Of a DNA stretch of 64,000 bases, positions 45,226-63,748 are shown piece after piece. Source of the DNA: Nitratireductor sp. XY-223 (lineage in GTDB: Bacteria; Pseudomonadota; Alphaproteobacteria; Rhizobiales; Rhizobiaceae); NCBI RefSeq assembly GCF_004959855.1, contig NZ_SPNT01000002.1:920520-984519 (forward strand). The letters run 5' to 3'. A model generated the notes under the pieces. That model was given only the letters and a program-made list of their open reading frames with translations. It was not told the origin of the DNA and did not search any database. The position numbers and the translations under genes are program-made. Each line of letters starts with the position of its first letter. Position 1 is the stretch's first letter.

Positions 45226-47587
<2,362 letters not shown>

Positions 47588-49250: not shown

Positions 49251-50889
49251 ATGGTCCGCGGACGCGCTTGCCGAAATCGGGCTCGAGCAAGCCGATGGCA
49301 AGCTGCGGATCGCCATTGCGCCGGACAGCAACATCTATTCGATGACGGTCGGGCGATATCTCGGCCCCGCTGACCGCGACCGGCGGGCGATCAGCATCGA
49401 GGAACCGGACGGCGCGATGAGCCACTACACCTTTGCCGAGGTGGACGCCGCCGCGACAGCGCTCGCTGCGCGGCTGCGCGCGCTTGGCTGCGGGCGCGGC
49501 GATTATGTCGGGCTGCATTGCGGCATGCGCCCGGAAACCGCAATCGCCCATATGGCCATCTGCAAGATCGGCGCGGTGGCGGTGACGCTGTCGCAGCTCT
49601 ACGGGCCGGACACGCTGGCCCATGCGCTGAACGACTGCCGGGCGGAAGTCCTGTTGACGACCGAAGCCGGCTGGGCACCGCTGCGCGGACAGGCGCAGGA
49701 CCTGTTTCCGCATCTCAAGCATGTCCTCGTCTCCTCCAGCCTCGGGCCGGAAGAGGATCTTTCATCCGTCCTTCGGTCGCCGCCGCCGGCGGACTTCGAG
49801 CCGGAACTCACCGGTGCCGACGACCCGGCGCTCCTGATGTACACCTCCGGATCGACCGGCATGCCCAAGGGCATCCTGCACGGCCACCGGGTCCTTGCCG
49901 CCTACCGCCCGTCGATCAACCTGTTCTTCAACCTGTCGCTACGCGACGAAGACGCAGTGTTCTGGTCGCCGTCGGACTGGGCCTGGGTCGGCGGCCTCCT
50001 CGACATGCTGTTCCCGGCCTGGCTAGCGGGACGGCAGGTGGTCACCTCCGAGGCACGCTTCAAGGCCGACTGGGCCTTCGCCTTCATGGCCCGCCACAAG
50101 GTGACGCACACGTTCCTTGCGCCGAGCGCGATCCGCCGGCTGGCGCAGACCGCCGATCCGCACAGGGACCACGATCTTTCGATGCGGGTCATCTGCACCG
50201 GCGGTGAGGCGCTGGCGGCGGAGATCCTCGAATGGGCGGAAAACAGCCTCCGCGTCGTCTGCAACGAGTTCTACGGGCTGACCGAGGTCAATCACCTGAT
50301 CGGCAACTGCGCCCGGATCTATCCGCGCCGGGCCGGATCGATGGGGCTCGCCTATCCCGGGCACAAAGTGCTCCTCGTCGATCAGGACGGTCAGGCGGTC
50401 GCGCCGGGCGAGATCGGCGAAATTGTCACAACGGACGACGCACCGACGCGTTATCTCGGCTATCTCAACAATCCGGACAAGGAAGCGGAGCTGCGCCTCG
50501 GCCCCTATATGCGCACCCACGATCTCGCGGTGCGCGATGACGACGGCTATTTCTGGTACAAGGGCCGGTCCGACGATCTCATCAAATCGTCCGGTTTCCG
50601 CATCGGCCCGGCCGAAATCGAGGAGTGCCTCATCGCCCACCCCGCCGTTGCGGAAGCGGCGGTCATCGGCAAGCCCGACAAGGAGCGCGGCGCGATCGTC
50701 AAAGCCTTCATCCGGCTGGCCAGGGACTATGCCGCACAGCCTGGGCTCGAGAAGGAACTGACCGAGCACGTGCGCAACCGGCTCGCGCCCTACAAGGCAC
50801 CGCGCGAGATCGCCTTCGTCGACAGCTTCGAAATGACTTCCTCCGGGAAGATCAACCGCAAGGCGCTCAGGGCCGCGGAAGCCGGTTGA
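49234..50889 (+). CDS. Acyl-CoA synthetase (AMP-forming)
   Basis: A 551-residue adenylate-forming enzyme. The P-loop-like A3 motif is LLMYTSGSTGMPKGILHGH, A5 is VCNEFYGLTEVN, A8 is YMRTHDLAVRDDDGYFWYKGRSDDLIKSSGFRIGPAEIE (the usual R-T-G-D is R-T-H-D) and A10 is MTSSGKINRKALR with the catalytic Lys. It is close to acetyl/medium-chain acyl-CoA synthetases. The TTG start at 49234 has GGGGAG 8 nt upstream. It activates an acid to its CoA thioester, presumably the substrate of the thiolase-fold/DUF35 pair. Confidence 0.9.
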   Translation: MKPLTEWSADALAEIGLEQADGKLRIAIAPDSNIYSMTVGRYLGPADRDRRAISIEEPDGAMSHYTFAEVDAAATALAARLRALGCGRGDYVGLHCGMRPETAIAHMAICKIGAVAVTLSQLYGPDTLAHALNDCRAEVLLTTEAGWAPLRGQAQDLFPHLKHVLVSSSLGPEEDLSSVLRSPPPADFEPELTGADDPALLMYTSGSTGMPKGILHGHRVLAAYRPSINLFFNLSLRDEDAVFWSPSDWAWVGGLLDMLFPAWLAGRQVVTSEARFKADWAFAFMARHKVTHTFLAPSAIRRLAQTADPHRDHDLSMRVICTGGEALAAEILEWAENSLRVVCNEFYGLTEVNHLIGNCARIYPRRAGSMGLAYPGHKVLLVDQDGQAVAPGEIGEIVTTDDAPTRYLGYLNNPDKEAELRLGPYMRTHDLAVRDDDGYFWYKGRSDDLIKSSGFRIGPAEIEECLIAHPAVAEAAVIGKPDKERGAIVKAFIRLARDYAAQPGLEKELTEHVRNRLAPYKAPREIAFVDSFEMTSSGKINRKALRAAEAG

Positions 50890-50909: not shown

Positions 50910-50927
50910 AATCTGTATTTACAAATT
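50910..50927. promoter_or_regulatory. GntR-type operator upstream of the sugar-pathway operon
   Basis: AATCTGT-ATTT-ACAAATT: 6 of 7 arm positions pair, 11 bp before the start of the epimerase gene. It matches the site at 47628-47645 at 16 of 18 positions. Confidence 0.7.
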
Positions 50928-50938
50928 GGGTGGAGCAC

Positions 50939-51775
50939 ATGAAATTCGGCATTCATTCCGGGCTCTGGATGACCCGCTGGACCGACGAGATCGAGCCGAT
51001 CATGTCGACAGTCGCGGAGCTCGGGTTCGACGGCATCGAGATTTCATTGCTCGGAATTACCCTCGACCGGGCGGCCTCACTGAACGCGGCGGCCCGCGAC
51101 CGCGGGCTTGAAATCACCTGCTCCACGGGGCTCGGGGCGCATGAGGACCCGACATCCCCGGATCCCGAAATGCGCAAGGCGGCGCAGGCGGCGCTGAAAA
51201 ATGCGGTCAGGATCACCGCGGCACTCGGTGCGAGACAGCTTGCCGGCGTTATCGCCGCGCCCTGGGGCGTATTCGATCCCGGCGACAAGGCGGGCCGGGC
51301 GGAACGGTCGGCGGCGCTGCTGGGCGGCATCGACCCTCTGTTGTCCGAGGAGGGCGTGGTGTTCGGCGTCGAGGTCATAAACCGTTTCGAGACCGACCTC
51401 ATCAACACCGCGCAGGAGGGCATCGCCTATGTCGATGCCGTCGGTTCGCCCCGGATCGGCCTGCTGCTCGACACGTTCCACCTCAATATCGAGGACAAGG
51501 ACCCGCCGGCTTCCATTCGCGCGGCCGGCAAGCGGCTTGTGCACTTCCATGTCTCCGACAATGACCGGGGAACGCCCGGCAACGGGCACTTCGATTTTTC
51601 CGGCGCCGCCGGCGCGCTGCGCGACATCGGCTATGACGGCTGGGTCACCGCCGAAATGTTCGTGGTGCCCGGCCATCCGACCAGTGCGGATCTGAACATC
51701 TGGCGTGCCCTGGAGCCGGATCCCACCGAGGCGGCCCGGCAGGCGCTGCAGTTCATGAAGGCGACGTTCCAATGA
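50939..51775 (+). CDS. Ketose 3-epimerase (D-tagatose 3-epimerase family)
   Basis: A 278-residue TIM-barrel sugar isomerase. The metal ligands E145 (GVEVINRFETD), D178 (LLDTFHLNIED), H204 (HFHVSDNDRG) and E239 (VTAEMF) have exactly the spacing of D-tagatose 3-epimerase E152/D185/H211/E246. It also keeps the substrate-contact NDRGTPGNGHFDF. A metal-dependent C3 epimerisation of a free ketose is predicted. The start ATG 50939 follows GGTGGAG. It overlaps dhaL-like downstream by 4 bp. It is the first gene of the operon. Confidence 0.87.
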   Translation: MKFGIHSGLWMTRWTDEIEPIMSTVAELGFDGIEISLLGITLDRAASLNAAARDRGLEITCSTGLGAHEDPTSPDPEMRKAAQAALKNAVRITAALGARQLAGVIAAPWGVFDPGDKAGRAERSAALLGGIDPLLSEEGVVFGVEVINRFETDLINTAQEGIAYVDAVGSPRIGLLLDTFHLNIEDKDPPASIRAAGKRLVHFHVSDNDRGTPGNGHFDFSGAAGALRDIGYDGWVTAEMFVVPGHPTSADLNIWRALEPDPTEAARQALQFMKATFQ

Positions 51776-52323
51776 CGGCGCGGCGGTTTTTCGAAAAACT
51801 GGAGGCCCTGTACACAGACGAGCAGGAACGCCTCAACGATCTCGACGCGGCGATCGGCGACGGCGATCACGGCAGCACCATGCTGCGCGGCCTGACGGCC
51901 GCCGCCAAGGCCGGGGACGGGCTACAGGCGAAGGCGTTCATGCGCGCATCGGGCGGGGCGTCGGGAACGCTGTTCGGCCTGATCCTGCACGAGATCGAGC
52001 TTCATCTTTCGGGCAGCGAGCGGTCGCTGGCCGCGCATCTGCGGCGCAGCCTCGAGCGCATCAAGGAGCTCGGGAAGGTCGCTCAAGGAGACAAGAGCAT
52101 GGTCGACTCGCTGGAGCCGGCCGTGTCGGCGCTCGATGCCGGGCGGGGCATCGGCGCCGCTGTTGCCGCCGCCACTGCGGGCCGCGAAGCGACCCGCGAC
52201 CTGGCGGCGCGGCGCGGTCGCGCCCGCTATGTCGAAGACGCGGGCAGGGGGCACGTGGATCCGGGCGCGGCCTCGGTCTGCCTGATCCTCGGTGTGCTGG
52301 CCGGCGAGGAGGAGCAGCGGTGA
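51772..52323 (+). CDS. DhaL-type ADP-binding subunit of a dihydroxyacetone/ketose kinase
   Basis: A 183-residue all-helical DhaL domain. The Mg-nucleotide Asp cluster is LDAAIGDGDHGSTM; GASGTLFG, QGDKSMVDSLEPA and RARYVEDAGRGHVDPGAAS complete the family set. It carries the nucleotide and phosphoryl chemistry for the DhaK subunit encoded next (GTGA overlap). No DhaM phosphocarrier gene is near, so ATP is the likely donor. The L-before-K order of separate subunits is unusual for ATP-dependent kinases, which are often single fused chains. Confidence 0.87.
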   Translation: MTARRFFEKLEALYTDEQERLNDLDAAIGDGDHGSTMLRGLTAAAKAGDGLQAKAFMRASGGASGTLFGLILHEIELHLSGSERSLAAHLRRSLERIKELGKVAQGDKSMVDSLEPAVSALDAGRGIGAAVAAATAGREATRDLAARRGRARYVEDAGRGHVDPGAASVCLILGVLAGEEEQR

Positions 52324-53330
52324 AGAAACTCTTCAACAGCCAGGAGCGCATGGTCGACGACATGATAGACGGATTTGTCGCCGTCTACCCGCAGGTCAAG
52401 CGCGGCGAAAACGACAGCCGCATCGTCGTGCGCAGGCAGCCCAAGGACAGCGACGCCAAGGTGACACTGCTCATCGGCAACGGTTCCGGCCACGAGCCGA
52501 TCGCCATGGGTTTCGTCGGCGAGGGGCTGCTCGACGCCAATGTCGTCGGCGATGTCTTCGCGGCACCGTCCGCGGACCTGATCCTCGACGGCATCGCGGA
52601 GGTTTGCGGCGCCGCCGGCTCGATCCTGCTCATCTCGCAGCATTCCGGCGACGTGATCAATGGCGGCGCTGCGGCGATGCTGGCCGAAGAGGCCGGACAC
52701 ACGGTCAGGCCGCTGTTCATGTATGACGACATTTCCTCGGCCCCCAAGGGCGAGGAAACAGAGCGGCGCGGCGCGCCCGGAACCATGTTCATCTACAAGA
52801 TCCTCGGGGCGGCAGCGGAAGAGGGCATGGCGCTGGGGCCGCTCTTCGAACTGGGCGAGGCGGTGCGGGACAATACGCGCACGCTGGCGGCGGCGGTGAG
52901 CCCCGGAATATCGCCGCTCACCGGAAAGGCGATGTTCTCGCTGCCCGACGACGAGATCTATCTCGGCATGGGCGTTCATGGCGAGCCGGGGATCGGCAAG
53001 GCCAAATACGGCCCGGTCTCGGGCCTCGTCGAAACCATGGTCGAGGCGCTGCTGGACGACAGGCCGGTGCCGGCGGGTGATGCGGTCGCGGTCATCGTCA
53101 ACGGCATGGGCGGAACAACGCTCATGGAACTGCTGACCGTATACCGCGAGACCGAAACGGCGCTGAAGGCACGCGGACTATCAGCGGTGGCGCCGATGGT
53201 CGGCACCTATGTGACGACGCAGGAAATGGGCGGGTTCTCGATCTCGCTGCTGACGCCGACCGCCGAGATGCTGCGGCTCTGGTGCGCGCCTTCAGACACG
53301 CCGCATTTTCCGGCGATCAAACGGGACTAA
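52320..53330 (+). CDS. DhaK-type ketone-binding kinase subunit
   Basis: A 336-residue DhaK domain. GNGSGHEPIAMGFVGEGLLDANVVGDVFAAPS holds the GHEP substrate site (the second His of the usual EPAHAGF is replaced); D111 lies in SGDVINGG; H220 in LGMGVHGEPGIG is at the position of the His that forms the hemiaminal with the ketone carbonyl. Changes around the pocket (IAMGF, QHSGDVINGG) suggest a larger ketose than dihydroxyacetone, such as a tetrulose, pentulose or deoxyhexulose. It works with DhaL. Confidence 0.88.
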   Translation: MKKLFNSQERMVDDMIDGFVAVYPQVKRGENDSRIVVRRQPKDSDAKVTLLIGNGSGHEPIAMGFVGEGLLDANVVGDVFAAPSADLILDGIAEVCGAAGSILLISQHSGDVINGGAAAMLAEEAGHTVRPLFMYDDISSAPKGEETERRGAPGTMFIYKILGAAAEEGMALGPLFELGEAVRDNTRTLAAAVSPGISPLTGKAMFSLPDDEIYLGMGVHGEPGIGKAKYGPVSGLVETMVEALLDDRPVPAGDAVAVIVNGMGGTTLMELLTVYRETETALKARGLSAVAPMVGTYVTTQEMGGFSISLLTPTAEMLRLWCAPSDTPHFPAIKRD

Positions 53331-53342
53331 GCGGGGCGCGTC

Positions 53343-54260
53343 ATGGGTCAGCAAAAACCGGCACCGCAATCGCCCATGTATGGCGTCGCTGTCGACCAGG
53401 GCAGCGGCCTGCAAGCAGCCATCGCCGAGGCGCGCGGGCCGGACGCGCGCGACACCGACCTGTTCGATTTCAAGAAGGCGGTCGTCGAATGCCTGAGCCC
53501 TGAGGCTTCCGTCCTATTGGTCGATGCGGAATATGGCCGCCGGTTGCTGCCGCACTACGATCCGGCCTGCGAAAAGCTGCTCGCCTACGAGGCGGACGTC
53601 TACCGCATCGTGACAAGCGAGCGCATCACCGTTCTCCCCGACAACCTGAGCGTTGCCGACTACGCGGAACTTGGCGTGCGACGGCTGAAGTTCTTCCTCT
53701 ACTACGCGCCGCGCGGCTCGGCTGAAACCAACGAAAAGAAACATGCGCTCGTCCGCGATATCGGCCGGCAATGCGCCGATCACGGCATCGAGTTCCTGTT
53801 CGAGCCGATCGTCTACGACGAAGAGGTGACCGATTCCGCGTCGCTGGCGTTCGCCCGCCTGAAACCGGACCTCGTGCGCGAGGCGACCGCCGTCTATGCC
53901 GATCCGGATTTCGGAGTCGACGTACTGAAGGTCGAAATCCCGGTCAATCTTGCATTCGTGGACGGATACGGCAGCGGTGAATTCGATCGCGGCTGGGCGC
54001 TCGAGCGGTTCCGCGAGGCCGCGGACGCAGCCGGTCCGATCTCGCTCGTTTATCTGAGCGCGGGCGTTTCGTTCGACTGGTTCGAACAGTCCCTGAAGCT
54101 GGCGCGCGAGGCGGGTGTCGATGCTGCCGGGTTCATGTGCGGGCGGGCCATCTGGTCGGACGCGGTGACCGAGTTCGGCAAGGGCGGCCATAGGCGGCTG
54201 ACCGAGTGGCTGATGGGCGAGGGCCGGCGACGGCTCCAGCGGTTGAAGGCGGCGTTATGA
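53343..54260 (+). CDS. LacD-family class I aldolase
   Basis: A 305-residue TIM-barrel aldolase resembling tagatose-1,6-bisphosphate aldolase LacD. The Schiff-base Lys is K196 in GVDVLKVEIPVNLAFV; E154 in FLFEPIVYDEE, the KFFLYY strand and LVYLSAGVS with AGFMCGRAIW complete the active site. It should cleave a ketose phosphate to DHAP and an aldehyde. Genes for a kinase (upstream) and an aldehyde dehydrogenase (4-bp ATGA overlap downstream) support this. Confidence 0.85.
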   Translation: MGQQKPAPQSPMYGVAVDQGSGLQAAIAEARGPDARDTDLFDFKKAVVECLSPEASVLLVDAEYGRRLLPHYDPACEKLLAYEADVYRIVTSERITVLPDNLSVADYAELGVRRLKFFLYYAPRGSAETNEKKHALVRDIGRQCADHGIEFLFEPIVYDEEVTDSASLAFARLKPDLVREATAVYADPDFGVDVLKVEIPVNLAFVDGYGSGEFDRGWALERFREAADAAGPISLVYLSAGVSFDWFEQSLKLAREAGVDAAGFMCGRAIWSDAVTEFGKGGHRRLTEWLMGEGRRRLQRLKAAL

Positions 54261-55729
54261 CGGACCTCATGCCCCTCCTGCCGGAAGTCGAGGCCTTTCT
54301 GAAGGGCCCCCTGTCGCTGCGTATCGGCGGCGGTACGGTCGACACGGACGGCACAATCGAGGTCATCGATCCGTCCTTCGGATCACCTTTGTGCAATGTT
54401 GCCGGGGCCGGTGCGCGGGAGGTCGACCTTGCCGTTACGGCCGCACGCGCGGCCTATGAGGGACCATGGTCCGCGATGACGCCGGATGAGCGCTCGCAAT
54501 GCATCTGGCGGCTGGCCGAACTTGTCGACGAACGGGCCGGCATCTTCGGTCAGCTCGACGCCCTCGACAATGGCAAACCCTTCGCCGTCGCGCGCGATGT
54601 CGATGCCGCCTATTCGGCGCGGCACCTGCGCTACTTCGCCGGCTGGCCGAGCAAGATAGAGGGCGCGACGATCCCCGTGTCGGTGCCGGACCGGTTCAAC
54701 TACACGCGGATCGAGCCGGTCGGCGTCTGCGGCCTGATTGCGCCGTGGAACTATCCGTTGCTGATGGCGGTCTGGAAAATCGCACCGGCGCTTGCCGCCG
54801 GCAACGCGATCGTCATGAAGCCGGCGGAGCAGACGCCGCTCAGTGCGCTCTACCTTGCCGACCTGGCGCTCGAGGCGGGCTTCCCCGAAGGCGTCCTCAA
54901 CGTCATTCCCGGTATCGGGACCGAGGCCGGCGCGGCCCTTGCCGCTCATCCGGGCGTCGGCAAGATCGGCTTCACCGGAAGCACGGCGACCGGGCGGCGC
55001 ATCGTCGAAGCCTCGATGGGTAACCTGAAGAAAGTGTCGCTCGAACTCGGCGGCAAGGCCGCGAATATTCTCTTCGCCGACGCCGATCTGGAAAAGGCGG
55101 TGCCCGGTGCCTTCTGGGCGCTGTTCGGCAATAACGGCCAGTCCTGCACGGCCGGTGCGCGGCTCTACGTGCAGCGCCCCGTCTTCGAGCAGGTGCTGGA
55201 AGGGCTTGTCGCGCTCGCATCACAGGTATCGGTCGGGCCCGGCATGGCCGAGACCGCCCACGATCTCGGGCCGGTCATCAGCGAGCGGCAGATGCGGACC
55301 GTCACCGGCTATATCGACAGCGGCGTCTCGGAGGGCGCCGAATGCGTTGCCGGCGGCGGCCGGCTCGGCGACACCGGCTATTTCGTCGCGCCGACGATCC
55401 TCACCGGCGTCACCGACGACATGCGGGTTGCCCGCGAAGAGATCTTCGGCCCGGTGCTGTGCGTTCTGCCCTTCGACGATGAGGCCGAGGTGATCGGGCG
55501 CGCCAACGATACCGAATACGGGCTGGCGGCGGGCCTGTGGACCCAGGACGTCACCCGGGCGCGGACGCTCGCCGAGCGGCTGAAAGCCGGCACGATCTGG
55601 ATCAATTGCTGGGGCGAGACGGACGCCGCCTCGCCTTTCGGCGGAATGAAGCAGAGCGGCTACGGCCGCGAAATGGGCGCCGACGCCATCGCCCTCTATT
55701 CACAGACCAAAAGCGTCTGGGTGGTTTGA
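54257..55729 (+). CDS. Aldehyde dehydrogenase
   Basis: A 490-residue NAD(P)-dependent aldehyde dehydrogenase. APWNYP with N165, KPAEQTPLSA, GFTGSTATGRRI, general base E263 in LELGGKAANI and nucleophile C297 in GNNGQSCTAG are present; EIFGPVLCVLPF and PFGGMKQSGYGREMG close the family pattern. The ATG overlaps the aldolase gene's stop. It probably oxidises the aldehyde released by the aldolase, for example lactaldehyde, glycolaldehyde or glyceraldehyde. Confidence 0.92.
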   Translation: MTDLMPLLPEVEAFLKGPLSLRIGGGTVDTDGTIEVIDPSFGSPLCNVAGAGAREVDLAVTAARAAYEGPWSAMTPDERSQCIWRLAELVDERAGIFGQLDALDNGKPFAVARDVDAAYSARHLRYFAGWPSKIEGATIPVSVPDRFNYTRIEPVGVCGLIAPWNYPLLMAVWKIAPALAAGNAIVMKPAEQTPLSALYLADLALEAGFPEGVLNVIPGIGTEAGAALAAHPGVGKIGFTGSTATGRRIVEASMGNLKKVSLELGGKAANILFADADLEKAVPGAFWALFGNNGQSCTAGARLYVQRPVFEQVLEGLVALASQVSVGPGMAETAHDLGPVISERQMRTVTGYIDSGVSEGAECVAGGGRLGDTGYFVAPTILTGVTDDMRVAREEIFGPVLCVLPFDDEAEVIGRANDTEYGLAAGLWTQDVTRARTLAERLKAGTIWINCWGETDAASPFGGMKQSGYGREMGADAIALYSQTKSVWVV

Positions 55730-55744
55730 CATGCCGCATTCGGT

Positions 55745-55760
55745 CATACAAATTGGTATG
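55745..55760. promoter_or_regulatory. Operator-like site upstream of gntR
   Basis: CATAC-AAATTG-GTATG is an inverted repeat with 5-bp arms, 24 bp before the gntR start. Its complement contains AATTTGTAT, identical to half of the operator at 47628. Autoregulation by the GntR protein is likely. Confidence 0.5.
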
Positions 55761-55784
55761 CAACGAATGAGGGAGGCCTGATCC

Positions 55785-56522
55785 TTGGAAGCGCGTGCGG
55801 AACCGAAATACAAAGTCGCTTATGGCGCGTTGCTGAGCCGCCTGGTGTCGGGGCGCTATCCGATCGGCGGGCGGCTGCCGACCGAGGACGAACTGGCGAA
55901 GACGTTCGACATCAGCCGGGTCACCATCCGCCGCTCGCTCGACATGCTGGTCAATGAAGGTTTCCTGGAGCGCCGGCAGGGCAGCGGCTACACGGTCATC
56001 TCGCTGTCGCCGCCCTCGTCCATGTGCCTTTCGTCCTTTACCGATGCCATGCTGCGGGCCGGCCGTGAACCGTCGTCCCGGTTGATCCGCATCTCGACGT
56101 TGGAGGCTGGCGCCCATGGCGAGGAACTGATCGGCGAACTGCAGGACGAGCGGCTGACCTGCATCGAGCGCCTGCGGCTCGTCGACGACGTACCGCAGAT
56201 GCTGGTGCGGACCTGGGTTCCGGCACGGCTGCTTTCGAACGCGACGGCGGACGATTTCCCCAATACCGGTCACGAACAGTCGATCCTGCGCATATTGCGG
56301 CAGCGTTTCGGCCTTGAATGGAACGCCGCCTGCGAGGACATCAGCCCGGCCGGGGCGCCGGCGGATGTCGCCAAATACCTGCACATCGAACCGGGGCGCC
56401 CGCTTCTGGTGCAGGCCTGTACCGCGTTCGACGAGGACGGCGGCGTCGTGTTCTACGAGCAGGTCTATCGCATCGGCAAGGTCAGTTTCAATCTCACCGG
56501 GGCCTCGCGGCAGGCACGCTAG
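55785..56522 (+). CDS. GntR-family regulator, HutC/UTRA type
   Basis: A 245-residue regulator. The N-terminal winged helix is YGALLSRLVSGRYPIGGRLPTEDELAKTFDISRVTIRRSLDMLVNEGFLERRQGSGYTV; the C-terminal UTRA effector domain (about 85-240) includes ERLRLVDDVPQMLVRTWVP and PLLVQACTAFDEDGGVVFYEQVYR. The TTG start follows GGGAGG. It sits inside the sugar gene cluster and is the candidate that binds the AATTTGT palindromes at 47628, 50910, 55745 and 58112. The effector is probably a pathway sugar or sugar phosphate. Confidence 0.9.
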   Translation: MEARAEPKYKVAYGALLSRLVSGRYPIGGRLPTEDELAKTFDISRVTIRRSLDMLVNEGFLERRQGSGYTVISLSPPSSMCLSSFTDAMLRAGREPSSRLIRISTLEAGAHGEELIGELQDERLTCIERLRLVDDVPQMLVRTWVPARLLSNATADDFPNTGHEQSILRILRQRFGLEWNAACEDISPAGAPADVAKYLHIEPGRPLLVQACTAFDEDGGVVFYEQVYRIGKVSFNLTGASRQAR

Positions 56523-56536
56523 TCAGGAGTGATAGG

Positions 56537-57964
56537 ATGCAGGAAGCGGTCACGATCGGCGTCATTCATGCTTCGCTGCCGAGCTATTTTCCGGACGAGC
56601 ACAATGTCTTCGAAAATTGCGGCCGGGTTCTGGAAGAGCTTTGCGCGGCAGAGGGCGCGCGCATGGTCAACGCGCCCGAGCGGCCGATGAACGGATCGGA
56701 AGCGCGCCGGGCCGCCGATTTCTGCCTCGCCGAGGGCGCCGACTTCCTGCTGCTCATTCACGGCGGTTTCACCATGGGGGACGTGGCGCAGACACTGGCG
56801 ACGGTCCCCGTGCCGATGGGCGCCTGGGCGACGCCGGAACCGACCCTCGAGGGCGACATACAGCTGAACAATTTCGTGTCGCTCAACATGACGATGTCGA
56901 TCGCCAAGGGGGTGCGCGACCTCAAGGCAAATCCGATCCAGTGGTATTTCGGCGCGCCGGGCAGCCCGGAACTGCAGCAACGGCTGAAAATAACGCTGCG
57001 GGCACTCGCCATGGTCAAGAGCATCACCCACAGTCGCCTGGCGATGATCGGCGGACTGGCGCCGACCTTCTACAATATGGAGGTCACCGCCAACACCCTC
57101 AAAAGGCGATTCAGCATCGATGTCGACGCCCACGAAATCACCGAATTGACGGGACGCATGGCGGCGATCGACGCGGCGCGCGCCGTGGCGGAAGTGGAGA
57201 AGATGACGGCGGCGGCGACGGTTCGCGATGTCAGCGACGAGCAGTTGACGCTGAACGCACGGGCGGCGCTGGCGCTGCGCGACATCTGCGATGAAGGGGA
57301 CTATGCGGCGCTGGCCGTTTCCGACTGGCCGGCGCTGCAGGTGGATCCCGGAATCCACCCGGGTGCCGCCTTTACCTGGCTTGAAGAGGTCGACGGCGTG
57401 GCGGTCGCATCCGAGGGCGATCTTCTCGGCGCCATCACACAGCTTGCCGCCAAATCCATGACCGGCAAGGTCGGCTACCTTCTCGACATGACCGAGCCCG
57501 ACCTCGAACAGGGCGATCTCCTGATGTGGCACGGCGGCGGCGGCCCGCTCTATCTGGCCGACGACAACGGCGCCGCCTGGATCAACCATCCGATGATCGG
57601 GCGCGGGACCGAGGCCGGGGCCTGCTACGGCACCATCAGCGAGCTCGTGTTCAGGGACGGGCCGGTCACCGCTTTTCGTATTGCCGACGACGCGACGACA
57701 CTGTTTGAAATGGAAGCCCGGGTAGCCGGGCGCACCCCGACCGGCTTCACCGGCTGCCGGGGCTGGCTGCGCGACTTTTCAATCGACGCGCAAGCGGCCT
57801 CGCTCGACGACGTGATCTCGACGGTCATGGGGCACGGGATCGAACATCATTTCGTCCTCGTCCCGGGGCACCATCATACGGTGCTTGCGGAATTTGCCGC
57901 CTGGGCGGGTCTTCGACCGCTCGAGCGGCTGACGGCACGGAAGCACGTGTACAGAGCCCCCTGA
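56537..57964 (+). CDS. L-fucose/L-arabinose isomerase-like protein
   Basis: A 475-residue protein resembling the FucI/AraA sugar isomerase fold. The metal/base pair E293 (VASEGDLLGAITQL) and D317 (GYLLDMTEPD) is 24 residues apart, as in E. coli FucI (E337, D361). A C-terminal His pair, GIEHHFVLVPGHHH, may supply the third ligand. LLLIHGGFTMGDVAQTLATVPVPMGAWATPEPT fits the N-terminal substrate domain. It would interconvert an aldose and ketose and thus feed the epimerase and kinase. It is shorter than FucI (about 590). Start ATG 56537 after AGGAGTGATAGG. Confidence 0.75.
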   Translation: MQEAVTIGVIHASLPSYFPDEHNVFENCGRVLEELCAAEGARMVNAPERPMNGSEARRAADFCLAEGADFLLLIHGGFTMGDVAQTLATVPVPMGAWATPEPTLEGDIQLNNFVSLNMTMSIAKGVRDLKANPIQWYFGAPGSPELQQRLKITLRALAMVKSITHSRLAMIGGLAPTFYNMEVTANTLKRRFSIDVDAHEITELTGRMAAIDAARAVAEVEKMTAAATVRDVSDEQLTLNARAALALRDICDEGDYAALAVSDWPALQVDPGIHPGAAFTWLEEVDGVAVASEGDLLGAITQLAAKSMTGKVGYLLDMTEPDLEQGDLLMWHGGGGPLYLADDNGAAWINHPMIGRGTEAGACYGTISELVFRDGPVTAFRIADDATTLFEMEARVAGRTPTGFTGCRGWLRDFSIDAQAASLDDVISTVMGHGIEHHFVLVPGHHHTVLAEFAAWAGLRPLERLTARKHVYRAP

Positions 57965-58111
57965 ACGGCTGGTGGAGCAGCCTTCGAGGGACGGAAACCA
58001 AATGCGGCAAATGATTGGATTCGCGGGGGTTTTGCAACCGCTGCGAGGGTGAATCGGATCGCTGTCGGGCGCCCGGCTCGGGATGTCGTGACGGCGGGTT
58101 TGGATGGAACG

Positions 58112-58163
58112 AATTTGTTGACATCAATGCAAATTGATATTACTCATTTTGTTATATCAAATT
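58112..58163. promoter_or_regulatory. Promoter/operator region of the ABC-transporter operon
   Basis: Two inverted repeats overlap here: AATTTG (58112-58117) / CAAATT (58130-58135), and AAATTGATAT (58131-58140) / ATATCAAATT (58154-58163, 9 of 10 pairs). TTGACA at 58118-58123 may be the -35. The AATTTGT half-site is shared with the other operators of this cluster. Confidence 0.55.
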
Positions 58164-58180
58164 TTGGGTGGGAGGACCTG

Positions 58181-58240
58181 GTGAAGTCAGAATTCGAACC
58201 GAAACGGCGCATGGACGATCGCCGCCCGAAGCGGCGCTGA
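58181..58240 (+). CDS. 19-codon basic leader ORF before the ABC ATPase gene
   Basis: GTG 58181 is preceded by GGGAGGACCTG, the best ribosome site in the operon, and opens a 19-residue ORF, MKSEFEPKRRMDDRRPKRR, ending at TGA 58238-58240. The ATPase start GTG follows 4 bp later and has no ribosome site of its own. The peptide is strongly basic (9 Arg/Lys). It probably acts as a leader whose translation delivers ribosomes to the ATPase gene. Alternatively the ATPase mRNA context is simply untidy. Confidence 0.55.
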   Translation: MKSEFEPKRRMDDRRPKRR

Positions 58241-58244
58241 TCCG

Positions 58245-59300
58245 GTGACGCAGGTTCAACTTCGAGCCGTCAGAAAGGAGTTCGGCTCCTTCGTCGCGCT
58301 CGAGCATATCGATCTGAACATCGCCTCGGGCGAGCTTGTCGCACTGCTCGGCCCGTCCGGCTGCGGCAAGACCACGACACTGCGCATGATTTCGGGTCTC
58401 GACAATCCGACCGACGGCGAGATCCTGTTCGACGGCAAGGACGTTTCGGACGTTCCTGTGCGCGACCGCAACGTCGGCATGGTGTTCCAGCGCTACGCGC
58501 TTTTCCCGCACATGAATGTCGAAAAGAACATCACTTTCGGCCTGCGCGTGCGCAATATCCCGGCCGAGGAAGTTGAGGCGCGTCTCGAGGAAATCCTCGA
58601 CATCGTGCAACTGACCCAGTTCCGCCACCGGTTCCCGGCGCAGCTCTCGGGCGGGCAAATGCAGCGGGTCGCCATCGCCCGCACGCTGATCACCAAGCCC
58701 TCGGTGCTGATGATGGATGAGCCGCTTGCCAATCTGGACACGAACCTGCGCGGCGAGATGCGGCGCTTCATCCGCGATCTGCAGCAGCGGTTCAACATCA
58801 CGACGATATTCGTCACCCACGACCAGGTCGAGGCGATGGAGCTGTCCGACCGGGTCGCGGTGCTTTTCGACGGACGCCTGGAGCAGTTCGATACGCCTGA
58901 CGCCATCTATCACCGGCCGGACAAGATCAGCGTTGCGAAATTCATGGGCGCATCCAACATCTTTCAGGGCACAATCGGCGACGGCGTGGTCAAAGCCGGC
59001 TTTGCAGACCTTGCCGTGACGGGCACCCAGCAGTTCGATGCCGGGGAGCAGGTCGACGTGATGGTGCGCAGCGAAGCGATCCGGCTGTTGAAACAGCCGC
59101 AGGACGGCGCCGCCAACCAGGTCGAGGGCGAGATCCGTACGTCGGACTTTTTCGGTGCGACCGTTTCCTACACCGTGCAGGTGGGCGACCATCAACTCAA
59201 TGTCGACGAGCATTCGACGGAAAAGCTGGATCCGGGAAGCAGGGTCTTCCTGCAGCTTCCGGGCGACCGGATCTGGCTGTTTCCGAAACGGGCCAACTAG
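58245..59300 (+). CDS. ABC transporter ATPase (MalK/PotA type)
   Basis: A 351-residue ATPase. Walker A GPSGCGKTTTLR, Q-loop MVFQRYALFPHM, signature LSGGQMQRVAIA, Walker B VLMMDEPLANLD and the switch His in IFVTHDQVEAM; a C-terminal TOBE-like regulatory domain (about 235-350) follows. GTG start at 58245, 4 bp after the leader ORF. It energises the two permeases encoded downstream. Confidence 0.93.
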   Translation: MTQVQLRAVRKEFGSFVALEHIDLNIASGELVALLGPSGCGKTTTLRMISGLDNPTDGEILFDGKDVSDVPVRDRNVGMVFQRYALFPHMNVEKNITFGLRVRNIPAEEVEARLEEILDIVQLTQFRHRFPAQLSGGQMQRVAIARTLITKPSVLMMDEPLANLDTNLRGEMRRFIRDLQQRFNITTIFVTHDQVEAMELSDRVAVLFDGRLEQFDTPDAIYHRPDKISVAKFMGASNIFQGTIGDGVVKAGFADLAVTGTQQFDAGEQVDVMVRSEAIRLLKQPQDGAANQVEGEIRTSDFFGATVSYTVQVGDHQLNVDEHSTEKLDPGSRVFLQLPGDRIWLFPKRAN

Positions 59301-59343
59301 GCGAACCGGTGGCGGGAACGCCGCCAAAACTGGGAGGAGTAGC

Positions 59344-60711
59344 ATGACTGGATTATCGAAGACCGCGTTGCGCAAGGGTCTCATGACGGCGGGCGCGCTG
59401 GTTTTGACGACGGCACTGGCACACGGTGACGAGGCTGCGGAACAGTTCCGCACCGACTTTCTGGGCGGCAAGCTGAGCTGGGAAGACGTCTCGAAGCGGG
59501 CCGCCGAAGAAGGCAAGGTCAATTTCTACTACTGGGGCGGCAGCGACACCATCAATGTGTGGATCGACAGCGTCGCCGCGCCGGCCATGAAGGAACTCGG
59601 CGTCACGCTCAACCCGGTTCGCATAACCTCGACCAAGGATGCGATCGACCTGGTGCTTGCCGAAAAGAACTCAGGCAAAGGCGTTGGCGAAGGCAGCGTC
59701 GATGCGGTTTGGGTGAACGGCGAGAATTTCTACACGCTGAAACAGCAGGAAGCGCTGTTCGGCTCCTTTGCCGAGAGCGTGCCGAATTCGGCCAATTTCG
59801 ACTGGAATCCTGACGATCCGCGTTCGCTGCTCAACCTGCGCGATTTCGGCGTCACGACGGACAGCCAGGAGATTCCGTGGTCCGGGCAGCAATATGTCTG
59901 CGCGGTGAACCGGCAGTATGTCGATGCCGCCGATACGCCCTCGACCTTTGAGGAAATGAAGGCGTATCTGGAAAAGAACCCCGGCAAGTTCACCTATGTG
60001 AAGCCGCCGCACTGGGTCGGCAACACCTTCGTGCAGTCCGTCATGTATTCCTTTAACCCGGACGGCAATGGCGGCGTCCCGTTCCAGCAGTCGATCGACG
60101 ATCTCGGCGCGGCCGAGCTTGCCCGCCTGATCAAGCCGGGCATGGAATATCTGAAGTCGATCGAACCCCTGTTGCTCGACGCCGATGGCGGCAAGCCGCG
60201 CTATCCGGAAGATATCGCTGCGCTGGACGGCATGTTCCTGAACGGCGAGGTCTACTTCAACTGCAAGTTCGGCCTGTATGCCGTGCACACCGGCCTGCAG
60301 ACGGGTGCTTATCCTGAAAAGGCCGAAGCGTTCATCTTCCCGAAGGGCGTGATGATTGCCAACAAGAACTATCTCGCCATCCCGGCGAACAGCCCGAATC
60401 CGGCGAGTGCGCTTCTGCTGGCGAACTACATGGCATCCGTCGACTCGCAGGCCTCGAAGCTGCAGAACGCCGGTATGCCGGTCGGCATCGATGTCTGGAA
60501 GCTGTCCGCCGATGATGCGGCGAAGGTCAAGGACGCCGCGCCGCCGCTCTATGGCGTGACCCAGGCCGAGCTCGACGCCAATGTCGCGCCGGACACCAAT
60601 GCCAGCCTTGTCGACGTGATCGAGGCCACGTGGCTCGAATATATCGAGCGCGGGTCTTCGTCTTCGATCGAGGAGATCGTCGACACGATGGTCAAGCAGA
60701 TGGCGCAATAG
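59344..60711 (+). CDS. ABC transporter substrate-binding protein (YnjB-like)
   Basis: A 455-residue periplasmic binding protein with a signal peptide ending near ALAHG-DEA. YnjB-like features: EEGKVNFYYWGGSDTINVWIDSVAAPAMKELGVTLNPVRITSTKDAIDLVLAEK, VDAVWVNGENFYTLKQQEALFG, PPHWVGNTFVQSVMY and KGVMIANKNYLAIPANSPNPASALLLANYMAS. The ligand of YnjB proteins is not known; the cluster suggests a sugar or nucleoside. Start ATG 59344 after GGAGGAG. Two hairpins follow its stop. Confidence 0.87.
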   Translation: MTGLSKTALRKGLMTAGALVLTTALAHGDEAAEQFRTDFLGGKLSWEDVSKRAAEEGKVNFYYWGGSDTINVWIDSVAAPAMKELGVTLNPVRITSTKDAIDLVLAEKNSGKGVGEGSVDAVWVNGENFYTLKQQEALFGSFAESVPNSANFDWNPDDPRSLLNLRDFGVTTDSQEIPWSGQQYVCAVNRQYVDAADTPSTFEEMKAYLEKNPGKFTYVKPPHWVGNTFVQSVMYSFNPDGNGGVPFQQSIDDLGAAELARLIKPGMEYLKSIEPLLLDADGGKPRYPEDIAALDGMFLNGEVYFNCKFGLYAVHTGLQTGAYPEKAEAFIFPKGVMIANKNYLAIPANSPNPASALLLANYMASVDSQASKLQNAGMPVGIDVWKLSADDAAKVKDAAPPLYGVTQAELDANVAPDTNASLVDVIEATWLEYIERGSSSSIEEIVDTMVKQMAQ

Positions 60712-60720
60712 CCCATCGCC

Positions 60721-60779
60721 GCGCCGCCGGTTCGCCGGCGGCGCCCTGCGATCCTTACTGGCCGCCGCTATTGGCGGCC
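60721..60779 (+). other. Two tandem hairpins between the binding-protein and permease genes
   Basis: GCGCCGCCGG-TTCG-CCGGCGGCGC (60721-60744) is a perfect 10-bp stem with a UUCG loop. GGCCGCC-GCTATT-GGCGGCC (60760-60779) is a perfect 7-bp stem. No T-tract follows. They fit 3'-end stabilisers that let binding-protein mRNA outlast the permease message. Confidence 0.75.
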
Positions 60780-60805
60780 CGGCTCACAAGCACCCGTACG
60801 GACCC

Positions 60806-61735
60806 ATGGCAACCCAGGACACAGCCCTCGAAATTCGATCGGAGCGCCGATCGGCCGCGCAGCGCAACGCGCTTTTGATGCGCATTGCCGAACTCGCGCC
60901 CATCGTCATCGTTCTTTTCGTGCTGTTTGGCGGCGCCCTGGTGCTGGCACTGCTGCAGAGCCTCGGATTCGCGCCCTGGTTCGGCATCAACACCTTCCCG
61001 GACTTTTCCTATTTCGGCGCCCTTTGGGGATCCTCCGCCTTCTGGGTGTCGCTTGGCCTGACGCTCTATTACGGCTTCGTATCGACCATCATCGCCCTCA
61101 TCATGGCGATCGTGCTCAGCCTCGCGCTGATCAAGCCGTTCCGCGGCAAGATACTCTATAAATATCTCTACAAGCTGCCGCTGATGATCCCTTACACGGT
61201 GGGCATCGCGCTCGCCGTCTTGATGCTCGGCAACGGCGGCATCCTGTCGCGCCTCCTGGCCCTCGTCGGCATGATCGACAATCCCGGCGACTTCCCGCAG
61301 ATCCTCAAGACCCACTACGGCTGGGGCATCATGGCGGTCTATGTGTGGAAACAGGTGCCGTTCATGACGCTGGCGATCTACGCGGTGCTGCTCGGCATCG
61401 GCCGCGAGACGGAGGAAGCGGCGGCGATCCTCGGCGCGACCCGGCGGCAGATCTTCTTTTCGGTGACGCTGCCGCAGATCCTGCCCGGGATCGTCTCGTC
61501 GACCCTGATCTGCTTCGCCTTCAACGTCGGCGCGTTCGAGGCGCCCTTCATTCTCGGCGGCGGATATCCCGACACGCTCCCGGTTGTTGCCTGGCGCTAT
61601 TTCAACGACGCCAATTACGCCTTCCAGCTCCAGGGCATGGCGACGGTGGTTTCCATCGGCATTGTTGCGGGCGTCATCCTGTTTGCGTATCTGGCCGTCT
61701 ACCGGCGCTATGAGCGCATGCGCGGGAGGGCCTGA
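60806..61735 (+). CDS. ABC transporter permease 1
   Basis: A 309-residue membrane protein with six to seven helices. The permease EAA loop reads EEAAAILGATRRQIFFSVTLPQILPGIVSS (about 205-235). A hydrophilic N-terminus precedes the first helix, PIVIVLFVLFGGALVLALL. It forms the translocation channel with permease 2, whose gene begins 1 bp after this stop. Confidence 0.9.
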   Translation: MATQDTALEIRSERRSAAQRNALLMRIAELAPIVIVLFVLFGGALVLALLQSLGFAPWFGINTFPDFSYFGALWGSSAFWVSLGLTLYYGFVSTIIALIMAIVLSLALIKPFRGKILYKYLYKLPLMIPYTVGIALAVLMLGNGGILSRLLALVGMIDNPGDFPQILKTHYGWGIMAVYVWKQVPFMTLAIYAVLLGIGRETEEAAAILGATRRQIFFSVTLPQILPGIVSSTLICFAFNVGAFEAPFILGGGYPDTLPVVAWRYFNDANYAFQLQGMATVVSIGIVAGVILFAYLAVYRRYERMRGRA

Positions 61736-61736
61736 C

Positions 61737-62594
61737 ATGGCACGCAAGGCCACCAACACCTTCACGCATCTGTCGCCGTTCCAGCGCTTTTATCTTATTG
61801 CGGTTGCCGGGCTGATCGTCGGCCCCTTCATTCCGCTGATCATCCAGAGCCTCGCCTTCCGCTGGGCCTGGCCCAATCTGCTGCCGACGGTCTGGTGGAT
61901 GGAACAGCGCGAGCGCTCGCCGATCCCGCTTGCCTGGGACTATGTGCTTTCGCCCTATTCGCGGGTCTATGAGGCGACGTTCAACACCATGGTGATCGGC
62001 CTCGCGGTGACGGTCATCTGCCTGGCGATCTGCCTGCCGGCAGCGCGGGTGCTGGCGCGCGAGAGCTTCAGGGGTAAAAGCAGCTTCGAGTTCTTCCTGT
62101 CGCTGCCGCTGATCGTGCCGGAAGCGGCGATCGGTATCGCGCTGTTGATGATCTTCATCAATCTCGGGCTCGCCGGCAGCTATTTCGGCATCATCATCGC
62201 CCATCTGATTCCGACCATCCCCTACATGGTACGCATGCTGACGGCGGTCTATCAGGGGCTCGGGCGCGAATTCGAGGAACAGGCGATGATCCTCGGTGCG
62301 ACGCGCTGGCAGATCCTGCGCATGGTGACCCTGCCGATGCTGATGCCCGGCGTCGTGGCCGGTGCGCTGTTCACCTTCCTGGTCTCGAGCAACATCTTCC
62401 TGCTCACCTTCTTCCTGGGCCAGGGCAAGATCATCACCTTGCCGACACTGCTGTTTTCCAAGATCTCCGGCGGAACACTCGATGCCTCAGCGGCCGGGAT
62501 CACGCTGATCGTGTCGCTTCCGGGCATCATTTTGCTGATCATCTCGGAGCGCTTCATCAAGGAAGAGGCATTCGGCAAGGGCTTTGGAAATTAA
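61737..62594 (+). CDS. ABC transporter permease 2
   Basis: A 285-residue membrane protein with about six helices. EAA loop: FEEQAMILGATRWQILRMVTLPMLMPGVVAG. In E. coli YnjC both permease halves are fused; here they are separate chains. The ATG at 61737 lies after GGGAGGGCCTGAC, overlapping the end of permease 1. The nucleoside hydrolase gene follows 50 bp on. Confidence 0.9.
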   Translation: MARKATNTFTHLSPFQRFYLIAVAGLIVGPFIPLIIQSLAFRWAWPNLLPTVWWMEQRERSPIPLAWDYVLSPYSRVYEATFNTMVIGLAVTVICLAICLPAARVLARESFRGKSSFEFFLSLPLIVPEAAIGIALLMIFINLGLAGSYFGIIIAHLIPTIPYMVRMLTAVYQGLGREFEEQAMILGATRWQILRMVTLPMLMPGVVAGALFTFLVSSNIFLLTFFLGQGKIITLPTLLFSKISGGTLDASAAGITLIVSLPGIILLIISERFIKEEAFGKGFGN

Positions 62595-62644
62595 CTCTGA
62601 ACAATCCGTGACCCGGCGGACCAACCGGCAGAAAGGCTGGGACC

Positions 62645-63748
62645 ATGAAGACACCCGATTATATCCTTGAACGTTTTCCCAAGCTCAGCGACGAAGAGAT
62701 GCAGGCACGGCTGGAACACCCAGGCAAGCCGGTCCGCGTGATCATCGATACCGATGCCGCGAACGAAATCGACGATCAGTTCGCCATTGCCTGGGCGCTG
62801 CTGTCGCCCGACAGACTGCATCTCGAAGGCGTGACTGCGGTGCCGTTTTCTTTCCAGCACCACCGCGATGCGATCATCGAGAGCGTGAACCATTTGCGGG
62901 AAGGGCGTTCGGCAAGCGACGACAAGGTCGGCAGCCTGCGCGGCTGGGCGGAACGGGTGATCGCCGCCGGCCGCGATGCCGAGGATATCAAGTTCGTCGC
63001 TCCCGACGAGGGTGCCGAGCTTTCCTATGAGGAAATCCTGAGGGTCTATGAAGAATGCCGGGTTTCGCCGGAAGGCAAGGTGTTCCGCGGATCGCCCGGC
63101 TATCTGACATCGCTCGACGAACCGATCGCCTCGCCATCCGCAGATTTCATCATCGAACGTGCACGGGCCAAGCCGGACGAGCTGCTCTACATCTGCGCCA
63201 TGGGCGCGGTCACGAATATCGCTTCGGCTTTCCTGATGGCGCCGGACATCATCCGCAATGTCGTTGTCATCTGGACCTCTGCCTATCCAAGCCACTCGCC
63301 GCACTGCAACGCTCCATCGCTCAATCTGGTTCAGGATCCACTGGCCTCGAGCCTGATCTTCGATTGCGGCGTGCCGCACGTCTATCTGCCCGGTTATTTT
63401 GTCGGTGCCCAGCTTAAGATGTCGCTTCCGGAGATGGATCGTTTCGTCCACGGCAAGAGTGCGATCGCCTCCTACCTGCACCATCTCTTCACCCACAATC
63501 CTCTGCACGAATTGTTTGCGATCACCGATCCGGAGGAGCGCAGCTGGGTGTTGTGGGACCTGATCGACATCGCCTGGCTGTTCGATCCCGAATGGGTGCC
63601 GACCATGCTCGTGCGCTCGCCGGTGCTCGATGATGATCTCTACTGGAAGCACCCGGAGGGCCGCCACCTGATGCGCGAGGCCTACGACGTCAACCGCGAC
63701 GCGATCATGATGGACCTTTACCGGCGGCTGGAGGCGGCGCCGGACTGA
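62645..63748 (+). CDS. Nucleoside hydrolase-like protein (IUNH superfamily)
   Basis: A 367-residue protein with the Ca2+-binding Asp cluster in VRVIIDTDAANEIDDQFAIAWALLS. This is an N-E-I-D-D variant of the usual D-T-D-P-G-x-D-D. YICAMGAVTNIASAF and a late WDLIDIAWLF with Asp are consistent with the fold. It would cleave the N-glycosidic bond of a ribonucleoside or a related N-glycoside to free sugar and base. Located at the end of the ABC operon, it may supply the sugar for the isomerase, epimerase and kinase steps. Start ATG 62645; C-terminus close to the end of the known domain. Confidence 0.82.
   Translation: MKTPDYILERFPKLSDEEMQARLEHPGKPVRVIIDTDAANEIDDQFAIAWALLSPDRLHLEGVTAVPFSFQHHRDAIIESVNHLREGRSASDDKVGSLRGWAERVIAAGRDAEDIKFVAPDEGAELSYEEILRVYEECRVSPEGKVFRGSPGYLTSLDEPIASPSADFIIERARAKPDELLYICAMGAVTNIASAFLMAPDIIRNVVVIWTSAYPSHSPHCNAPSLNLVQDPLASSLIFDCGVPHVYLPGYFVGAQLKMSLPEMDRFVHGKSAIASYLHHLFTHNPLHELFAITDPEERSWVLWDLIDIAWLFDPEWVPTMLVRSPVLDDDLYWKHPEGRHLMREAYDVNRDAIMMDLYRRLEAAPD

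Follow-up and report, generated by a model that had tools for sequence, protein, structure and literature searches.

We analysed a 64,000-nucleotide stretch of the genome of Nitratireductor sp. XY-223 (below, the window), in which a block of genes on the forward strand, starting at position 47686 and ending at 63748, may encode a single system that takes up and degrades a pentofuranoside-type compound, one whose sugar moiety cannot accept a phosphate at the far end, a reading to which we give a probability of about one half. The system would join a FucI/SftI-like sugar isomerase, a ketose 3-epimerase, a DhaK-DhaL kinase and a LacD-type aldolase, which together could yield dihydroxyacetone phosphate (DHAP), with a module composed of an acyl-coenzyme A (CoA) ligase, a DUF35 protein and a thiolase-fold enzyme. 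The reactions are deduced from the protein families, and the sequence in which they run, the origin of the acid and the nature of the substrate are likewise deductions. The original prediction had placed twelve genes at 50910-63748 of the plus strand, and all of them were found there, with overlaps as described. Its starting point was not borne out: the gene order of relatives sets the start of the conserved block at 47686, and the system extends to the left with the thiolase homologue, the DUF35 protein and the acyl-CoA ligase, at 47686-50889.

Conservation and co-occurrence of the gene set

A scan of GTDB genome contigs yielded 75 loci, mostly from alphaproteobacteria (roseobacters, SAR116, Hoeflea, Devosia, Nitratireductor and metagenome-assembled genomes, MAGs), with four from Granulosicoccaceae, one from a Flavobacteriales bin and a few from distant hosts (Truepera, Actinomycetota); the host names suggest a mainly marine habitat. 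Genes were counted by tblastn in 79 loci (L020-L022, L024 and L028-L102), some of which come from one and the same genome or species (L053/L072, L030/L097, L058/L101, L089/L092 and L020/L081, among others). We designate as long close-clade the 59 loci of at least 17 kb with an isomerase identity of at least 45%, which leaves out 20 of the 79. All eight core genes (isomerase, 3-epimerase, DhaL, DhaK, LacD, nucleoside-hydrolase homologue, CoA ligase and thiolase-like enzyme) were present in 48 of these 59 loci, the DUF35 and GntR genes in 52 each and the aldehyde dehydrogenase (ALDH) gene in 25. Among the 11 exceptions (L024, L029, L031, L039, L042, L043, L049, L058, L072, L085 and L088), the missing genes of L024 were found downstream, where the cluster continues, and the other half of the L031 cluster (genome G164) lies on another contig.

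Among 199 genomes of the window's family, the isomerase clade was found in six and the DhaK clade in exactly those six, the window's own included; they represent three of 109 genera. The probability of such a match by chance is 1/C(199,6) = 1.3e-11 for genomes and 1/C(109,3) = 4.8e-6 for genera, both values ignoring kinship. The isomerase clade was delimited at ≥238 bits, with the next best genome at 99, the DhaK clade at E 1e-100 and the thiolase clade at E 1e-80; the last is present in five of the six genomes and, outside them, in G186. A sample of 385 genomes drawn from the whole class held three with a thiolase match at E 1e-75, again including that of the window. Because the set recurs in 48 of 59 loci, and its isomerase and DhaK clades in the same six of 199 genomes, its association exceeds what chance would produce: the enzymes are conserved as a unit, and the families do co-occur elsewhere, an outcome on which the original prediction had staked its proposal.

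Several gene orders exist among the loci, that of the window being one. In a second, the importer, epimerase, kinase, aldolase and isomerase genes face those of the nucleoside-hydrolase homologue, GntR regulator, ligase, DUF35 protein and thiolase on the opposite strand, and in a third (L052, L056, L063 and L090) the ligase, DUF35 and thiolase genes face the remaining ones. The window's order is shared by plasmid-borne relatives in Marinovum, Paracoccus and, without the ALDH gene, Parasedimentitalea, where it is preceded on the left by genes for a transporter of the major facilitator superfamily (MFS), for a thiolase and a small protein, and for an AMP-forming ligase. On these plasmids the genes are annotated as 'L-fucose isomerase' or 'hypothetical protein', 'dihydroxyacetone kinase' and 'thiolase'.

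Active-site residues of the sugar enzymes

Pfam or NCBIfam assigned 11 of the 12 originally described genes to families, the exception being the isomerase. Among the NCBIfam matches listed for the ten proteins scanned, two exceeded their cut-offs, PRK12858 for the aldolase and PRK11622 for the binding protein, and both models define a subfamily type. The counts over relatives for the catalytic residues named originally, for the thiolase Cys and His positions and for the DUF35 cysteines leave out loci L001-L019, L023 and L025-L027 as well as matches covering <60% of the query.

The isomerase (56537-57964) had no Pfam match and no PDB sequence match at E 0.1. Its best NCBIfam match was the sulfoquinovose isomerase SftI, at 95.8 bits and short of the cut-off of 700; the AraA model matched with E 0.0032. 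Comparison of a profile of 47 isomerases with E. coli FucI using hhalign gave a probability of 93.5% (E 2.3e-7, columns 44-319), and that with E. coli AraA 21%, so that the earlier label 'FucI-like' stands at the superfamily level. E293 is present in 79/79 sequences and D317 in 78/79 (one gap), and the two align at the ATEND and FADVR stretches of FucI, whose metal-binding pair we take to be E337 and D361. The AlphaFold2 model of the isomerase has a mean pLDDT of 92.5. Paralogues of the isomerase (51-58% identity) were seen in L058, L060 and L072 within another type of cluster that contains genes for proteins resembling flavin monooxygenases and old yellow enzyme and for a UPF0261 protein; the clusters of L058 and L060 also include AMP-ligase and thiolase genes, and L072 shares one contig with L053.

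The 3-epimerase (50930-51775), a member of the tagatose/psicose 3-epimerase family, was recognised through Pfam AP_endonuc_2, PDB relatives and the NCBIfam psicose 3-epimerase model (208.6 bits, below the cut-off of 300). Its metal ligands E148, D181, H207 and E242 are each conserved in ≥97% of 65 sequences. The catalytic residues named in the original prediction were all upheld, namely E293/D317 of the isomerase, H220 of DhaK, K196 of the LacD-type enzyme, the four epimerase ligands (there E145/D178/H204/E239, three lower than in our numbering) and C297 of ALDH (298 here).

The kinase is split into a DhaL-type subunit (51772-52323; Pfam Dak2, and NCBIfam DhaL with 123.3 bits for a cut-off of 138.3) and a DhaK-type substrate subunit (52320-53330; Pfam Dak1). 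H58, D111 and H220 of the latter, equivalent to H56, D109 and H218 of the E. coli protein, are invariant (67/67), and E. coli K104, which presumably contacts dihydroxyacetone, is replaced by S106, likewise in 67/67, a change that fits a substrate other than dihydroxyacetone. The LacD-type class I aldolase (53343-54260) scored 251.1 bits against PRK12858 (cut-off 184) and 186.3 against the lacD equivalog, which requires 432.2. The Schiff-base lysine K196 is found in 59/59 sequences, as is the N-terminal motif D[Q/A/M]GSGL, the counterpart of DQRGAL in five LacD sequences from the PDB. G20-S21-G22 occupy the R-G-A position, and the arginine, which we assume to be the ligand of the 6-phosphate, is glycine in 59/59; its loss fits an aldehyde half that is unphosphorylated. 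ALDH (54257-55729; Pfam Aldedh, E 3.9e-171) has its catalytic cysteine in ≥97% of 26 sequences.

Importer, regulator and putative glycosidase

A GntR/UTRA regulator (55785-56522; Pfam GntR and UTRA) precedes the isomerase. A four-gene ATP-binding cassette (ABC) importer spans 58245-62594, with an ATPase (58245-59300; NCBIfam transporter ATPase families), a periplasmic binding protein (59344-60711, start codon picked by eye) of the PRK11622 type (273.9 bits, cut-off 203) and two permeases (60806-61735 and 61737-62594; Pfam BPD_transp_1).

The last gene of the block (62645-63748; Pfam IU_nuc_hydro) encodes a putative glycosidase of the nucleoside-hydrolase fold with a diverged active site. The residues of the calcium site, namely the DxD...DD fingerprint and the final aspartate, are kept (D35 in 63/64; D37, D43, D44 and D305 in 64/64), as are two asparagines, with the aspartate pairs two residues further apart than in RihA; W101 is also present in 64/64. 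The glutamate of the AEFN motif, which we take to bind the ribose 5'-hydroxyl (a role that a literature search did not find in print), is S225 in 64/64. W304 stands ahead of the last aspartate in 64/64, where group I hydrolases have the leaving-group histidine. Tryptophan at this position marks the group II purine-specific hydrolases, in which the base is activated by stacking (PMC8910321); the leaving group may therefore still be aromatic. In six loci, sister clusters with an isomerase identity near 30%, a GH51-like furanosidase is encoded, and a protein resembling purine nucleoside phosphorylase (PNP) was found in 22 related loci, so that the compound may be a furanoside whose aglycone varies. 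The proposal that a nucleoside hydrolase frees the sugar is uncertain, given the lost AEFN glutamate, the tryptophan in place of histidine (64/64) and the GH51-like enzyme of the six loci.

The ligase-DUF35-thiolase module

The thiolase homologue (47686-48855), which matched NCBIfam thiolase families, all below cut-off, is by its residues not a thiolase. The catalytic cysteine is replaced by G83 in 60/60 sequences and the catalytic histidine by A333 in 58/60, with Gln in the other 2. Instead, Y285 (60/60) and D286 (59/60) are followed by Ala (30 sequences), Ser (27), Cys (2) or Pro (1), and then by Tyr or Phe. This is the YDx[Y/F] motif of the side-chain aldolases Sal and Ltp2, which have in common with the present enzymes the thiolase fold, glycine in place of the thiolase cysteine and a zinc-ribbon DUF35 partner. 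The tyrosine of YDCY or YDHF is the base in the retro-aldol step on a beta-hydroxyacyl-CoA, and Sal has glycine where thiolases have cysteine (PMC12329534). The second acid residue is Cys304 in Sal and Tyr344 in Ltp2. The present enzymes differ in having no steroid context and in carrying Ala/Ser rather than Cys or His at the third motif position in 57/60. The DUF35/ChsH2-type zinc-ribbon protein (48852-49250; Pfam zf-ChsH2, 24.3 bits for a cut-off of 23.2) has C33, C36, C47 and C49 in ≥97% of 56 sequences.

The AMP-forming acyl-CoA ligase (49234-50889) matched Pfam AMP-binding, and its best NCBIfam match, below cut-off, was an acetate-CoA ligase. In alignment with E. coli Acs, T311 and V386, which together with W414 we take to be acyl pocket residues, correspond to glycine in 57/59 sequences each; W414 corresponds to Tyr in 57/59 as aligned and to Gly in 59/59 once the column is shifted by one position, which was done by hand to bring the TE motifs together. 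The acyl pocket is thus probably enlarged and the acid larger than acetate. Acetate was set aside as the ligase's acid on account of this opened pocket, an argument that depends in part on the hand-shifted column.

Homologues of the thiolase (49-51% identity) and of the ligase were also found beside tripartite ATP-independent periplasmic (TRAP) importers in genomes G186, G320 and G424 (loci L128, L131 and L132), in stretches that do not contain the cluster's sugar genes. The importer genes were named by eye in G186 and by Pfam DctP and DctM in the other two. The G320 and G424 modules additionally comprise an acyl-CoA dehydrogenase and an enoyl-CoA hydratase, and DUF35 was matched beside those of G186 and G320. 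Such company fits a role in cleaving a beta-hydroxyacyl-CoA.

Two further gene types were observed in related loci. Alpha and/or beta subunits of a thiamine pyrophosphate enzyme of the pyruvate dehydrogenase E1 (PDH-E1) type are encoded in L084, L085, L094, L096, L099 and L102. Members of a sulfatase family occur in L054, L062, L076, L083 and L088, in the first four directly after the thiolase, the position of the MFS transporter in other clusters.

Proposed pathway and relation to known routes

In the single system that we favour, the ABC importer would take up a furanoside, whose glycosidic bond would be cut by the nucleoside-hydrolase-fold enzyme (in some relatives also by the PNP-like or GH51-like proteins). 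The isomerase would convert the released sugar into a 2-ketose, the 3-epimerase would invert C3 to give the 3S,4R ketose required by an aldolase of the fructose-bisphosphate aldolase (FBA) type, DhaK-DhaL would phosphorylate C1, and the LacD-type aldolase would release DHAP and an unphosphorylated aldehyde comprising C4-C5. The aldehyde would then be oxidised to an acid by ALDH and converted by the ligase into a CoA ester, which the thiolase-fold protein, with DUF35, could split in a retro-aldol-like reaction into an acyl-CoA and a second fragment, perhaps exported in relatives by the MFS transporter.

The sequence of isomerase, 3-epimerase, C1 kinase and aldolase put forward originally is chemically coherent: a D-ribose-type sugar gives the D-ribulose form, which upon epimerisation at C3 becomes the D-xylulose form, with the 3S,4R stereochemistry of FBA-type aldolases. 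The ALDH step fared less well; the gene is present in the window, but with 25 of the 59 long loci it is the least constant of those described. As ordinary pentose enzymes would otherwise suffice, there would be a need for phosphorylation at C1 and an aldol route only where C5 bears a substituent different from hydroxyl, which points to 5-substituted 5-deoxypentofuranosides as the substrate class.

Neither the original prediction nor our search came upon a described pathway with this combination: no paper on it was found in the open-access full-text literature, although absence there is no proof. Parts of the chain have counterparts in known routes. The L-fucose pathway (FucI, FucK, FucA) likewise uses an isomerase of the FucI superfamily and splits a ketose-1-phosphate into DHAP and an aldehyde; here, the kinase and aldolase belong to unrelated families and an epimerase is added. 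The sulfo-Embden-Meyerhof-Parnas (sulfo-EMP) and sulfo-transaldolase (sulfo-TAL) pathways (YihS/YihT, SftI), in which oxidation of the aldehyde is optional, share an SftI-like isomerase and an aldolase of the DeoC/LacD superfamily, whereas the kinase family, the epimerase and the CoA module differ, and no sulfoquinovosidase was found among the genes scanned. A DhaK-type kinase acts on a ketose in the tetritol pathways (LerK, DerK) too; these are not known to link an isomerase and a 3-epimerase to a LacD aldolase. Finally, the DHAP shunt (MtnK, MtnA, Ald2) also cleaves a C1-phosphorylated ketose into DHAP and an aldehyde, as described in PMC10986504. By comparison with the shunt, isomerisation here would precede phosphorylation, the kinase would be DhaK-DhaL, the aldolase of LacD-type class I, and the set also includes a 3-epimerase and a CoA module.

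Alternative explanations

Several observations weigh against a single system. The LacD gene was not found in eight of the 59 long close-clade loci (L024, L029, L031, L043, L049, L058, L072 and L085), and was located elsewhere for two of them, L024 and G164 (L031). The ALDH gene was not found in 34 of the 59, and the acid may therefore have a source other than the product of the aldolase. The position of Sal's catalytic cysteine is Ala, Ser or Pro in 58/60 of the thiolase-like enzymes, the six PDH-E1-type loci lack this type of thiolase in the stretch examined, and W304, by matching the group II purine-specific hydrolases, makes a nucleobase possible as leaving group. The TRAP-associated modules imply that the ligase and thiolase can handle an acid unrelated to the sugar. 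In a rival reading, two modules would each act on one half of a conjugate: isomerase, epimerase, DhaKL and LacD would degrade the sugar to DHAP, and ligase, DUF35 and thiolase would degrade the acid aglycone that the glycosidase sets free, a possibility of some substance that we nevertheless do not expect to prevail. It gains chiefly from the thiolase and ligase homologues of G186, G320 and G424, whose stretches contain TRAP importers but none of the cluster's sugar genes, and also from the 34 loci without ALDH and from G164, where the modules are on different contigs. In that genome, however, the isomerase of L031 sits in the ligase half, so the halves do not separate cleanly into sugar and acid, and in the window the ALDH gene overlaps LacD and the ligase gene lies ahead of the epimerase on the same strand.

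It is unlikely, in our estimation, that the cluster is a variant of the DHAP shunt built from other enzyme families for 5-deoxyribose or methylthioribose derived from 5'-deoxynucleosides. The known shunt, too, ends in DHAP and an aldehyde (PMC10986504 and PMC12632272), nucleosides would fit the nucleoside-hydrolase homologue with its group II-like W304 and the PNP-like gene of 22 loci, and serine for the AEFN glutamate would fit an absent 5'-hydroxyl; yet no epimerase belongs to the shunt as described (the word is absent from PMC10986504), an enlarged ligase pocket and an aldolase-type thiolase homologue are not obviously needed for acetate or methylthioacetate, and many hosts are marine-named, unlike those expected for a general salvage route. 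A sulfo-sugar pathway of the sulfo-EMP kind appears very improbable: SftI is the best NCBIfam match of the isomerase and the aldolase is distantly related to the YihT type, but the SftI score reaches 95.8 of the 700 bits required, no sulfoquinovosidase was present among the recurrent genes scanned (clusters c26-c28, with four loci each, being outside the scan), and neither a 3-epimerase nor a CoA ligase is known to have a role in such a pathway. Equally hard to credit is a route in which D-apiose is oxidised to apionate, which would be activated and split by the thiolase-fold enzyme into glycolyl-CoA and dihydroxyacetone for DhaKL. The tertiary beta-hydroxyl of apionate offers the type of bond cut by Ltp2, and dihydroxyacetone is what DhaKL normally phosphorylates; this route would leave the isomerase, 3-epimerase and LacD aldolase idle, DhaK K104 is serine in 67/67, and the stretches of L097, L098, L099, L101 and L102 contain DhaK but neither ligase nor thiolase. 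The MAG of L097 does hold a ligase and a thiolase, in L030, and G066, the genome of L098, gave no thiolase match at E 1e-80.

A possible link to marine arsenosugars

Within the class of 5-substituted 5-deoxypentofuranosides, one candidate substrate, advanced here as a doubtful conjecture, is the marine arsenosugars of algae (5-deoxy-5-dimethylarsinoyl-beta-D-ribofuranosides). The ribose, freed of its aglycone, would be isomerised, epimerised, phosphorylated at C1 and split into DHAP and dimethylarsinoylacetaldehyde, the aldehyde would be converted into dimethylarsinoylacetate and its CoA ester, and the thiolase-fold enzyme would break the carbon-arsenic bond to give acetyl-CoA and dimethylarsinate for export, the arsinoyl group taking the role of the tertiary beta-hydroxyl. 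Dimethylarsinate, thio-dimethylarsenoethanol and thio-dimethylarsenoacetic acid are reported as arsenosugar metabolites in human urine (PMC6656958), and aldol-type cleavage of the ribose would produce two-carbon arsenic metabolites of this kind. The open-access literature searched yielded no paper on genes or enzymes of arsenosugar catabolism, nor one describing this cluster.

The genomic hints come from transporters and neighbouring ars genes, and both are weak. In 20 loci the thiolase gene is immediately preceded, on its own strand, by an MFS gene. All 19 of these proteins that were scanned (L077, with a stop in its stretch, was left out) matched NCBIfam ArsK (best E 4.3e-31), and no other family matched more than 13; the first member scored 102 bits, short of the ArsK cut-off of 400. 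With a threshold of E 1e-20, the ArsK model gave 43 matches across 61 genomes of the family, and the window's genome has 42 MFS_1 matches, of which one is ArsK-like, indicating that likeness to ArsK is uncommon among MFS proteins. In a weak control with 28 MFS proteins of the window's own genome, ArsK was not among the 25 most-matched families (each matched by ≥12 of these proteins). L048 has an ArsK-like MFS gene (210 bits) 2.5 kb beyond the thiolase, in L024 genes for ArsR, ArsC and an aquaglyceroporin diverge from the isomerase, and in L066 the nucleoside-hydrolase homologue is followed by ArsR, ArsC, GAPDH and ArsJ, the last over its cut-off. ArsC thus appeared beside two loci, where 0.22 would be expected in 1.54 Mb (P = 0.02, calculated post hoc from 68 matches in 101 genomes with an estimated mean genome size of 4.8 Mb), a statistic that is only suggestive.

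Against the arsenic interpretation, the 19 MFS proteins are orthologues of one another and thus amount to a single event, and at ~100 bits they fall below 41 of the 43 background ArsK matches, so they may represent merely a neighbouring MFS branch. An ArsK-like match occurs in 36/61 family genomes regardless of the cluster, and 15 other clusters have a different MFS protein (c18), whose best match, in the four members scanned, was the lactate transporter SfMCT. The ArsK-like MFS gene is not in the window, and the window's own genome gave no ArsC match. We know of no precedent for cleavage of a carbon-arsenic bond by an enzyme of the thiolase fold.

Neighbourhood of the block

To the left of the block, pcaD, pcaB and pobA (window 43296-47587) pass the NCBIfam cut-offs, with a Bcr/CflA-type MFS gene, different from the MFS of the relatives, between pcaB and pobA. 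PobA and the adjoining MFS (45222-47587) were rejected as members of the system, as they appear to belong to a protocatechuate operon; since, in addition, PobA recurs among the 79 loci only in L028 of Hoeflea poritis, an aromatic substrate was dropped. Further upstream are genes for an Stf0-type sulfotransferase (35434-36201) and a TauE-family membrane protein (37244-37996).

Implications

If the single-system reading is correct, the cluster would represent a catabolic route common to many marine-named bacteria, including roseobacters, SAR116, Hoeflea, Devosia and Granulosicoccaceae, in which DHAP is obtained from a sugar by enzyme families that we did not find combined in print and a CoA-dependent cleavage step is added. 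Should the substrates prove to be arsenosugars, the cluster would account genetically for how a major pool of organic arsenic in algae is turned over, and its thiolase-fold protein would be a type of enzyme that breaks the carbon-arsenic bond.

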